In this document: positions 11,871-60,376 of the stretch, piece by piece
Layout: each line of letters opens with the position of its first letter
Position numbering within the stretch: position 1 is the stretch's first letter
Source: Alkalicella caledoniensis
GTDB lineage: Bacteria; Bacillota; Proteinivoracia; Proteinivoracales; Proteinivoracaceae
DNA: 64,000 nt
Assembly: GCF_014467015.1 (NCBI RefSeq)
Contig: NZ_CP058559.1
Location: 310,001-374,000, forward strand
Reading direction: 5' to 3'
Program-made: the position numbers and the translations under genes
Notes under the pieces: generated by a model
What the model was told of the DNA's origin: nothing
What the model saw: only the letters and a program-made list of their open reading frames with translations
Database searches by the model: none

Positions 11871-12247
11871 TAACCCACCACCTTTTTATGAAATAGTATT
11901 AGGAATTATAATCTCCTAATTGACAATCATTAATATTAATACAACTTATTATATGTTTAATTCTAGATTAACAGGACAGATTCCTGCATCTTTCTTATTA
12001 TTTACAAAAATATATGTAATATTTAGGTATTGAAAGATGGGGAATTACCTTTGGGCTAAAAAACAAACTAACTTCACTAAAAACGGAACACTATCACACT
12101 AAGATAATAAAACCTTTGGACACCATCAACACCAACTAAAAAAAACACCATGTAAACCAAGAGATATGTAAGGCGGGTCGAAAGTGTAAACATTTATATA
12201 TTAACTCTGATACCCTGGATTTATAATGAGTAACCTAATTTAGATTA
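11871..12247. other. Intergenic region upstream of nfeD holding repeat copy a
   Basis: This is about 375 bases without a credible gene. It must contain the promoter of the nfeD-floA operon, though I see no clear -35/-10 pair. Its right half (12060-12200) carries a diverged copy of the dispersed intergenic repeat described at 58 kb. Confidence 0.6.
12109..12180 (+). repeat. Dispersed intergenic repeat, copy a (diverged)
   Basis: It begins AAAACCTTTGGACACCATC and contains ACACCAA, ACACCATGTAAACCAAGAG and GGGTC in the same order and spacing as the copies at 39752-39825 (same strand) and 57999-58126 and 58277-58404 (opposite strand). The flank to the left (TTCACTAAAAA, CACTATCACACTAA) also resembles words found in the 58-kb copies. 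Confidence 0.75.
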
Positions 12248-34000: not shown

Positions 34001-34247
34001 GCCACAGATCTACATGATCAATATGATCTTTTAAGTACATAAATATATAATTTCTTAAAGTTTATTATTAGTAGTTTTAATTGAGTTTTAATTGAGTTTT
34101 AATTGAAGTTAAATTGATAATTAAGTTTCGTTAGATTTTATAATTCCCTAAATCGTTTAAATCTGTTTTAATCCCAGTTAATCCGTGGCTAATCTTTTGC
34201 CTTTATCTTTTTTCCCTCAGATCATTTAGATCATGTAGATCTGTGGC
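34001..34247. repeat. Perfect 19-bp inverted repeat pair bounding a 247-base block
   Basis: GCCACAGATCTACATGATC at 34001-34019 is the exact reverse complement of 34229-34247. Each arm is followed inward by further GATC-containing words. The block could be a MITE-like element or a degenerate GATC/GTGGC repeat island. Confidence 0.85.
34074..34106 (+). repeat. Three tandem copies of an 11-bp unit
   Basis: GTTTTAATTGA is repeated three times without change (34074-34084, 34085-34095, 34096-34106) and is followed by a decayed fourth unit. The period is close to one helical turn. Confidence 0.85.
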
Positions 34248-34321
34248 CAAACTTTTGCCTTTATCTTTTTTCTCTCAGGATCACGTGAATTATGTTAATC
34301 AGTGGCTAAATTTATAAAAAC

Positions 34322-39646: not shown

Positions 39647-39751
39647 GTTACGCACCTCCTTTTTGTCAGAATTCGTCAGATATTGTTAAAATCCTGCATG
39701 GGCTATGCTATTTTTTTTTGAAGTTAATACCACTAACTACACTAAAATTAT

Positions 39752-39825
39752 AAAACATTTTGACACCATCTACACCAATCAAAACCAGACCAATTTGCAC
39801 CAAGAGTTATGTAAGGTTGGTCTTA
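39752..39825 (+). repeat. Dispersed intergenic repeat, copy b
   Basis: TAAAACATTTTGACACCATC, TACACCAATCAAAACCAGACC, TTGCACCAAGAGTTAT and GGTCTTAA align in order with the 58-kb copies read on the minus strand and with copy a at 12.1 kb. Confidence 0.8.
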
Positions 39826-39888
39826 AGTAACCAGCACTTTACACTATTAATAGGAAAACTTATGAGACTAAAGATTAAAGACTTCTAC

Positions 39889-39995
39889 TTAGCTCACCGT
39901 AACCTCTATATACTGTAACATGCTAGGTCATAATGCAATCTATTCAACGCAACATGCCGGGTCTTACAAATACTTTGGACTCCATCAAGTGTTAG
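39889..39995 (+). repeat. Linked repeat module with ACATGCYRGGTC words
   Basis: TTAGCTCACCGTAACC, TACTGTAACATGCTAGGTC, then ACATGCCGGGTC and CTTTGGACTCCATC. The reverse complement of 58121-58202 has TTTAGCTCACCGTAACC, two ACATGCTGGGTCAAAA-type words and CTTTGGACACCATC in the same order. Confidence 0.75.
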
Positions 39996-57998: not shown

Positions 57999-58126
57999 CA
58001 GCCTCACACTATCTTTCACTAAAATTCTTGCACACTATATAAAAACTTAGTAATTAAGACCCACTTGAATAACTATTGGTGCAAGATGGTGTGGTTTTAT
58101 TGGTGTAGATGGTGTCCAAAGGTTTT
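57999..58126 (-). repeat. Dispersed intergenic repeat, copy c (128 bp)
   Basis: Direct repeat of 58277-58404 with about 8 mismatches in 128 bases and no gaps. On the minus strand it begins AAAACCTTTGGACACC and contains ACACCATCTACACCAAT and ACACCATCTTGCACCAAT, an internal tandem pair. It ends AGATAGTGTGAGGCTG. Confidence 0.93.
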
Positions 58127-58202
58127 GACCCAGCATGTAACAGTATAAGGACTAGCATTTTGACCCAGCATGATTACAGTATGAGAAGGTTACGGTGAGC
58201 TA
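58121..58202 (-). repeat. Linked repeat module between copies c and d
   Basis: Holds two copies of TTTTGACCCAGCATG (58124-58138 and 58157-58171) and GGTTACGGTGAGCTAAA. The same arrangement in reverse occurs at 39889-39990. A decayed third TTTTAAACCAGCAGC ends copy d. Confidence 0.75.
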
Positions 58203-58276
58203 AATAGAGGCCTTTATAGTTATGCTAACTGCTGTAAATTACATTACAGAATATTCTTAAGGGAATCATTACAAAA

Positions 58277-58404
58277 CAGCCTCACACTATCTTTCACTAA
58301 AATGCCTGCACACTATATAAAAACTTAGTAATTAAGACCCACTTATATAGCTATTGCTGCAAGATGGTGTGGTTTTATTTGTGTAGATGGTGTCCGAAGG
58401 TTTT
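58277..58404 (-). repeat. Dispersed intergenic repeat, copy d (128 bp)
   Basis: Partner of copy c at a distance of 278 bases. Both copies lie in the same orientation between the mrdA terminator and minC. Confidence 0.93.
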
Positions 58405-58419
58405 AAACCAGCAGCTTAA

Positions 58420-58451
58420 AAAAACACCCCTAGCATTTGTGCTAAGGGTGT
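58420..58451 (-). terminator. Terminator of mreBCD-mrdA
   Basis: ACACCC-TTAGCA / TGCTA-GGGGTGT stem with one mismatch, followed by TTTTTTT on the minus strand, 6 bases after the mrdA stop. Confidence 0.88.
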
Positions 58452-58456
58452 ATATT

Positions 58457-60376
58457 CTAGTTGTCTTCAGTGTCTTCTTCTGTGTCTTCAACTTCTTCTT
58501 GTTCATCTTCTAAGTCGGCTTCTTTTGTTGCATTTAAACCAAAGTATTCGTTAAAGATACTTCTTGCTATATGGTGTGTATGGGAGTTCATACCACCGTG
58601 TTCTGTAAATACAACCACCGCTATTTCAGGTTCGTTTGCAGGGGCAAAGCCCATCCACCATGAGTGAGCATCACCGGTTTGAGCATTAGCAGAGCCTGTT
58701 TTTGCAGCCACTTCTATTGGGAAATCGTGAAATGCAGCTGCACTTGTACCGTTAACTCTGCTCCCGTATTTTGTAACAGATTTCATGGCATCAATAACAG
58801 TATTATAAGTTTGCTCAGAAACAACATCATAAGGTATGCTGCGGTATATCTCTGGCTCAAACTCTTCGATAATGTTACCATCTAGGTCAACAACTTGTTT
58901 TACTAGCCTTGGTCTAAAGTGGTAGCCTTTGTTAGCAACCATTGAAACTAAGTTAGCCATATGCATGGGAGATACAGCTATAGCAGAGTCCGCTCCTATG
59001 GTGTAGTGCAATACTGACTGAGATCCTGTTTCAAATACTTTACCTACTCTATTTTGTCCAGGGACATCTACAAAACCTGTATCCCCTGTCAGTCCAAAAA
59101 GATCTGTATAGCGCCTAATTATAGCTCTGTTTTCCCTCGGTCCACTATTACTTACGTTATCTGACATCCATCCAAAATAGGAGTTTAGTGAAACAGTTAA
59201 AGCTTCTCTAAGATTTACGCTACCCCAAACCCTATTGTTTGCATTATTAATCTTAACTCCACCTTCAATGCGAGATGTATATGAACCAGTATCATTGTAT
59301 CTTTGGTTAGGTGTTATTACTCCCTCCTGTAAACCCATAATACTTGTCAGTACCTTTATGGTTGATCCAGGACCTGCGTTTACCCAAAGTGGTCTGAATA
59401 TATCTCTACTTGTTTCAGGAGGTTTTCTATTGCCAAATCTTAAGTGTTTATTAAGCTGGTTATCTATTTCTGCCAATTCATTTGCTAAGGCACTTGTATA
59501 CATATTAGCAACATCATAGCTTGGATAGCTAGCCATGGCAAGGATGTCACCAGTTCTAACATCTATTACAATGGCAGCACCATGCCTTCCTGGGGGGTGA
59601 AGTCCTCGGTTGATCTGGTTTAATTGATTGTTTTCTATACCTTCAGCTAAGGCTTTTTGTACATAGTTTTGAAACTCTGCATTGATAGTTAAAACTATGT
59701 TATTTCCTGGAATAGATTCTTGGATATCCATGAGCTCAATGGGTACACTCCTTACATTTACTGCCCAAAGTTCATGACCATCTTGTCCTTGTAAATAGTC
59801 ATTCCAGGCAATTTCAAGGGAATTGTTCCTAGGAGTTCCGTCATTGTTCATACCTAAAACTAGCTGTGGAAATAAAGCTCCCTCGTCATAGTGTCTTACA
59901 GGTCTTTGTATTACTTCTATCATGGGATACTGCCAGCGTATCTCTTCTAGCTTTAGCATTTGCTCTCTGGTCATTCCCTGTTCTAATATTACTGTTTCTT
60001 GATATCTTCTATGTTGTTTAACTGTGTTGTATCTTCTTTGTTTTAAGCTAAGTGACTCGTCAGTCCTAGGCTCATCTTCCCACTGAAAGAATTCAGCTAA
60101 AAATTCAAAGGTTTCTTCCCAGTTATTACCAGGCCTGATTTGCAAGCCAACTTCATACCTATATTCATTTCTTGCAATTATATTACCTGCGGAATCTAAA
60201 ATAAGCCCACGTGGTGCTGGGTTAATAACCTTTCTTTCTGTATTTCTCCTTGCAAGGGCTGCGTGATGCTCACCTTGGATAACCTGTAAAAAAGCAAGAC
60301 GAAGTATAAGGATTGTGATAATAAGAACACTGGCAAACATAACCCCATTAATTCTAGTGCCTTTTGGTTGAGCCAT
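58457..60376 (-). CDS. mrdA: Penicillin-binding protein 2 (class B, elongation-specific transpeptidase)
   Basis: PBP2 cross-links peptidoglycan with RodA during elongation. The 639-residue protein has an N-terminal anchor, a PBP dimer domain (VINPAPRGLILDSAGNIIARN) and a transpeptidase domain with the S-x2-K motif (GPGSTIKV), the SxN motif (SLNSYFG) and KTG (AAKTGSANAQTG). The last 20 residues are an Asp/Glu-rich tail, which is unusual. It follows mreD by 17 bases. Confidence 0.94.
   Translation of the reverse strand: MAQPKGTRINGVMFASVLIITILILRLAFLQVIQGEHHAALARRNTERKVINPAPRGLILDSAGNIIARNEYRYEVGLQIRPGNNWEETFEFLAEFFQWEDEPRTDESLSLKQRRYNTVKQHRRYQETVILEQGMTREQMLKLEEIRWQYPMIEVIQRPVRHYDEGALFPQLVLGMNNDGTPRNNSLEIAWNDYLQGQDGHELWAVNVRSVPIELMDIQESIPGNNIVLTINAEFQNYVQKALAEGIENNQLNQINRGLHPPGRHGAAIVIDVRTGDILAMASYPSYDVANMYTSALANELAEIDNQLNKHLRFGNRKPPETSRDIFRPLWVNAGPGSTIKVLTSIMGLQEGVITPNQRYNDTGSYTSRIEGGVKINNANNRVWGSVNLREALTVSLNSYFGWMSDNVSNSGPRENRAIIRRYTDLFGLTGDTGFVDVPGQNRVGKVFETGSQSVLHYTIGADSAIAVSPMHMANLVSMVANKGYHFRPRLVKQVVDLDGNIIEEFEPEIYRSIPYDVVSEQTYNTVIDAMKSVTKYGSRVNGTSAAAFHDFPIEVAAKTGSANAQTGDAHSWWMGFAPANEPEIAVVVFTEHGGMNSHTHHIARSIFNEYFGLNATKEADLEDEQEEVEDTEEDTEDN

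Follow-up and report, generated by a model that had tools for sequence, protein, structure and literature searches.

Gene-less palindromic repeats of Alkalicella caledoniensis as possible MITE-like members of a family of GxxExxY stem-loop elements

Two direct repeats at 57999-58404 of the window, the 64,000-nucleotide stretch analysed here (positions 310001-374000 of a single-contig genome of 3,695,371 bp), belong to a family of imperfect palindromes that is dispersed through the intergenic DNA of the whole chromosome and has arm sequence in common with an element carrying a GxxExxY gene. The reading that we favour, with slightly more belief than doubt, is that the window repeats are gene-less, non-autonomous, MITE-like members of a selfish family of GxxExxY elements built like the intervening sequences of 23S rRNA. 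The full element would be a long imperfect inverted repeat with arms of 9-10-bp periodicity and a GxxExxY gene in its loop; the AB repeats of the window would have kept the arms alone, and the element at 188448-188985 of the genome the gene together with both B-type arms.

The repeat unit is a mosaic. In the first AB palindrome, module A (57999-58060, + strand) forms the 5′ arm and begins CCTCACACTATCTTTCACTAAAA, and module B (58056-58126, +) forms the 3′ arm and terminates in GGTGTAGATGGTGTCCAAAGG; the second palindrome comprises A at 58273-58334 (+) and B at 58334-58405 (+). The AB unit is about 125-135 bp long, and its two modules are imperfectly complementary (CACTATCTTTCACTA in A pairs with TGGTGTAGATGGTG in B), pairing with each other in the fold of the first palindrome (z -2.4; z -2.3 for the second). 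Module C (58124-58206, +; GACCCAGCATGT... GGTTACGGTGAGCTAA), which is often attached, is half of a second palindromic family; elsewhere it occurs as inverted C′...C pairs with the ends TTAGCTCAC...GTGAGCTAA, and it also surrounds the GxxExxY genes at 165.9 and 177.7 kb. An earlier note on this DNA had put the identity of the direct repeats 57999-58126 and 58277-58404 at about 94%; the similarity is real, amounting to 92.7% over 137 bp (57999-58135 against 58277-58413, E 6e-54). The blocks that the note saw in common with 39752-39825 and 12109-12180 are real as well, but they represent only the 3′ half of the repeat, that is, module B. Copies of B lie at 39751-39824 (- strand, 89% identity to the B consensus; the match to the window repeat, 39751-39829, has 85% identity) and at 12108-12179 (-, 85% to the consensus and 85-86% in direct comparison). 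A copy of module C (39886-39963, -, 82%) adjoins the former, and a fragment of module E, an inverted A-like arm, lies at 12067-12082 (-), where 16 of 16 bases match, a similarity that is weak alone (E 0.008). Elsewhere A is joined to a different right half, D, and B to a different left part, F, and the module orders seen include G-A-B-E, A-C-B-E and tandem A-B-C, the latter in an array of 223-bp period at 193.9-194.7 kb. These varied orders show repeated local recombination or nested insertion. A terminator-like hairpin at 58418-58458 adjoins the second window copy; the position next to terminators that had been ascribed to all copies is not a general property of the family.

A whole-genome search returned 58 matches at E up to 10. 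Modules A and B account for 49 matches (E at most 7e-5) at 27 sites more than 1 kb apart, spread over the whole 3.7-Mb chromosome; the family reported in the earlier note is therefore real, but its copies were undercounted at four. Chance likeness among AT-rich spacers, which the note had allowed for, is clearly not the explanation, since further copies exist and they align better than shuffled AT-rich spacers. The copies occur in tandem arrays, in mosaics with other modules and, genome-wide as in the window, in both orientations. They lie outside genes, as had been claimed: none of 163 module matches lies inside an ORF of at least 100 aa, the coding share of the sampled DNA being 66%. A motif common to the arms, TRGTGNAGWTRGTG, has 34 sites here against 3 for a reversed-pattern control, and 0-6 sites in relatives. 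The family was found neither in 60 other genomes of the phylum nor in the phage and plasmid collections searched. The exact core pattern gave a single match, in an unrelated contig, among 84,980 genomes and no match in viral contigs, both collections omitting the source genome itself. No conserved downstream gene was seen next to the copies, no match to Rfam above the gathering score occurs in the window, and a tRNA search returned nothing. The 27 sites, both orientations, intergenic placement, imperfect palindromy and confinement to one genome support the preference for a mobile, MITE-like repeat over a fixed 5′ leader.

The genome has six GxxExxY genes; the small ORFs between repeats match TIGR04256 (E about 1e-39), and those bracketed by arms score far above the family cut-offs of TIGR04256 and PF13366 (PDDEXK_3). 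The gene has about 125 codons. In the element at 188448-188985, the gene lies in the loop with a B-type arm on each side. Module B at 188448-188520 is the 3′ arm, directly after the gene (88% identity to the B consensus), and the 5′ arm aligns with B in reverse complement (score 35; best of 500 shuffles, 31), so that this element has B-type terminal inverted repeats with the gene in its loop. The gene has an intact catalytic PD-(D/E)XK motif, and the AB repeats look like gene-less relatives of the element. Module A has no significant similarity to the 5′ arm of the 188-kb element, so that only B and the palindromic layout connect it with the window repeats; and, because the window copies carry no GxxExxY ORF, we call them non-autonomous relatives only. 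The 165.9-kb and 177.7-kb genes sit within C-family palindromes, and three of the six genes lie at most 250 bp from an A, B or C copy (binomial P 2e-5, though the copies are clustered). Family H forms a tandem array of eight 254-bp units, of which seven are without a gene; the last contains the 3681.4-kb gene in place of about 50 bp at its centre. The 3665.3-kb gene lies between inverted arms of family I (TTTAGCCACAGATCTACATGATC; score 28, against a maximum of 13 in 60 shuffles), which has about 50 other copies in the genome; a gene-less palindrome of this family (TTTAGCCACAGATCTACATGATC ... GATCATGTAGATCTGTGGC, fold z -6.0, no strand assigned) is present at 34001-34251. The 196.5-kb gene stands beside G-type repeats, without clear paired arms. 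A GxxExxY ORF between inverted arms that are also found gene-less recurs at 188 kb (A/B), at 3681 kb (H), at 3665 kb (I) and in an array of the related genome G002.

Of the four further genomes in the family, two (G002 and G004) each have a single GxxExxY gene and two (G001 and G003) have none; in a sample of the phylum, the gene occurs in 6 of 149 genomes, the source genome, G002 and G004 included. The G002 gene stretches one unit of a palindromic array of about 350-bp units to 775 bp. The end of this unit has 70 matches in G002 and 48 in G004; G000, G001, G003 and four genomes at greater distance have no match to it. GxxExxY genes were also found on eight records of the plasmid collection and on two contigs of the viral collection. 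Inverted arms scored above all of 100 shuffles in Bacteroides finegoldii (TTCACCACAGAGGACGCAGAGGACACGGAG), Bernardetia, Sphingomonas (where the 3′ arm overlaps the end of the ORF), G109 and both viral-collection contigs. At the Treponema locus the arms were borderline in a narrow test; simple arms were not significant in that test at the Prevotella, Fusobacteria, Persicobacter and Gemmatirosa loci, and at the G100 locus they became visible only with wider flanks. The inverted-repeat score reached at least 17 in 13 of 24 small-ORF loci; its highest value among 57 neighbouring control genes was 16. The arms are made of short CAC/GTG-rich units, with a significant period of about 9-10 bp in Bacteroides, G109, G100, one viral-collection contig and family I; for AB the periodicity has p 0.06-0.07, and at the remaining loci it is not significant. 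The gap between radA and the gene of an FAD protein is short in Parabacteroides and in B. finegoldii holds arm, gene and arm; in Sphingomonas paeninsulae, fabD-fabG is without a GxxExxY gene. The two viral-collection contigs (L140 and L141, 2900-3450) have a common insertion site of a GxxExxY element, whose ORF is more diverged (75%) than the upstream gene (93%). Changes in the arms are mirrored on both sides, a pattern suggestive of replacement or conversion of the element; that the arms of these orthologous loci are wholly different was rejected, the alignment containing 2 compensated substitutions plus indels.

In 11 GxxExxY proteins, D, ExK and QxxxY are invariant, in addition to the GxxExxY motif that gives them their name. 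Invariance of these residues is expected of a catalytically intact PD-(D/E)XK nuclease. An AlphaFold model of the protein had a mean pLDDT of 48, too weak for comparison, a sequence search of the PDB gave no reliable match, and PADLOC returned nothing. In the openly accessible part of the literature, nothing was found that ties GxxExxY to repeats, and the name barely appears. We infer that the nuclease drives mobility. The paired arms, whether as cruciform DNA or as an RNA stem, would probably serve as its recognition or cleavage site, whereupon host repair or replication would copy the element into short intergenic gaps; the stem-loop may make such insertions tolerable to neighbouring genes. 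Gene-less palindromes would be mobilised in trans, in the manner of MITEs, and local multiplication into tandem arrays would proceed by unequal recombination. The GxxExxY genes might also be passengers.

The strongest rival, which we regard as unlikely, is that GxxExxY genes are separate selfish genes homing into palindromic repeats, the repeats being MITEs of other origin whose centres serve as safe landing sites. Homing would suit the H-array gene, which replaces its 50 bp or so in mid-unit of a pre-existing array, the presence of paralogues in the unrelated repeat families A/B, C, H and I, and the rarity of gene-bearing copies relative to gene-less ones. It sits badly, however, with the Bacteroides and Sphingomonas loci, where a relative has only a short gap in place of the gene and its own arms and where no host repeat is evident, and with the recurrence of similar periodic arms across several phyla.

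Less probable again is that the window repeats are ordinary MITEs of a classical DDE transposase, lost or unexamined, and that GxxExxY genes are found nearby since both gather in repeat-rich stretches around the start and end of the genome. Terminal inverted arms, copy number and intergenic preference all fit, and about 120 bp separate one IS1182-like ORF from a D/A/F/B cluster at 2585-2587 kb. Against this, the IS1182-like ORF is the only transposase-like one among the ORFs of eight module loci, no modules occur at the ten Y1 transposase loci covered, and a DDE origin does not explain why arm sequence is shared with a GxxExxY element or why the layout recurs in other phyla. Like MITEs, the AB repeats are short, non-coding and palindromic, have many dispersed intergenic copies with terminal inverted repeats (imperfect, A-B) and outnumber gene-bearing relatives with common ends. 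In contrast to MITEs, across the Y1 loci and the eight module loci the ends are held in common not with a transposon encoding a known transposase but with an element encoding the nuclease-like GxxExxY protein; moreover, they are periodic arms, the modules form mosaics to a strong degree, and no target duplication was found. None could be defined, the flanks being AT-rich and the copies embedded in other repeats, with no close relative that has an empty site. A conserved E-type palindrome (CACTAACTTACACAAAA...TTTTAGTGTCAGTTAGTG) occurs at three loci that resemble the ends of rRNA operons (L072, L073 and L074), adjoining a conserved downstream segment common to all three. The B-bearing locus is not at an rRNA operon, and hence these rRNA-associated E copies afford no clean empty-site comparison. 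The window repeats also resemble REP/REPIN sequences and their RAYT partners in being palindromic, intergenic and present in many copies, and RAYT-like genes are present in the genome; they differ in being longer and in lacking linkage to the ten Y1/RAYT loci. The genome has 11 matches to Y1/RAYT-type transposases, and modules are present in none of the ten loci around them (0/10). We therefore reject Y1/RAYT as drivers, and the REP-like reading offered as an alternative in the earlier note is unsupported. Several copies of short REP-like hairpins (GTAGCCCATCCCTTTAGGGTGGG) were seen at 1340.8-1344.0 kb (L034), and the RAYT-like Y1 genes may serve these.

The ORF-sense strand of AB folds better than dinucleotide shuffles (z -2.4, -2.3 and -1.5) and the opposite strand does not, the better fold being on the ORF-sense strand in 14 of 16 AB copies. 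Strand-specific folding suggests an RNA role. A structured RNA or transcription element under selection, such as a leader, an attenuator or a bidirectional terminator, would agree with this and with the near-invariance of the stem columns; we consider it very improbable, since the copies are found in either orientation, form tandem arrays and mosaics with other modules, have neither an Rfam match nor a conserved downstream gene, and are confined to one genome when 60 others of the phylum are searched. No double changes occur in the family alignment, and covariation within the AB family is uninformative because the stem columns hardly vary. The strand asymmetry of arm mismatches was 24 to 9 in a first set, 15 to 7 at the GxxExxY loci alone and 30 to 24, which is not significant, in a larger set; an early figure of 39 to 11 was inflated by a single spurious long alignment. 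Asymmetry as proof of an RNA stem was dropped, and we make no claim of it because the ratio fell to 30 to 24. Since this test is not significant, the DNA and RNA versions of the proposed mechanism both remain. Decayed local duplication without mobility, to which the many copies in tandem arrays (the 223-bp ABC array among them) might point, is scarcely credible for a family with 27 sites across the chromosome in both orientations.

We return to the GxxExxY stem-loop element as the favoured source of the window repeats. To our knowledge, no role is known for GxxExxY and four-helix-bundle genes, widely annotated as they are, nor has a cause been given for the long-noted periodic repeats between genes. 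A wider proposal, which we advance tentatively and with rather more doubt than belief, is that GxxExxY genes and, in parallel, four-helix-bundle S23 genes mark a widespread, undescribed class of selfish stem-loop elements, whose arms, short-period repeats (about 9-10 bp in GxxExxY elements, 7 bp in S23 elements), change fast and stay complementary to each other, and that derivatives without a gene account for much of the unexplained intergenic repeat content of many bacteria, the window repeats included. The common layout (a small ORF, complementary periodic arms and many gene-less copies) would unite both kinds of gene and the periodic repeats in one testable hypothesis. If true, this would be a nuclease-based, transposase-free mobile element, akin in build to rRNA intervening sequences, and it would account for insertions between operon genes, for example fabD-fabG, or at radA. 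These results point to one common class of "junk" repeats between bacterial genes as part of a kind of selfish element that has yet to be described.

Cyanobacterial STRRs are intergenic heptanucleotide repeats, and so are the TAACTGA repeats of Beggiatoaceae (PMC4679880). In the few loci whose arms were compared, the 7-bp arms of four-helix-bundle elements on Nostocales plasmids resemble such repeats; the window family is likewise intergenic and of short period, but its period is 9-10 bp. The four-helix-bundle protein (PF05635) is the ORF of 23S rRNA intervening sequences (PMC4990558), which, like the GxxExxY element, have a small ORF in the loop of a long inverted repeat. The window repeats, in contrast, are ORF-less and intergenic and do not lie in rRNA, and their related ORF is GxxExxY and not the four-helix bundle; the resemblance is one of architecture and not a proof of common descent. 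Of seven genomes, the three that have PF05635 genes are also the three with GxxExxY, and four-helix-bundle genes with 7-bp periodic arms were found in this genome, in the 23S rRNA genes of G002 and, in intergenic positions, on cyanobacterial plasmids. An intergenic tandem repeat built on AAGGCTGAAGCCTTGGCTACAAT (L031:4774-5202) reads as a false ORF (KAEALATIFGDVGDWC...). S23 genes between inverted arms of 7-bp period were observed at L131, L132, L134, L138 and L146-L152, and some S23 elements lie between genes of cyanobacterial CRISPR loci (cas10/cmr3, cas6/cas4) and of conjugation loci.
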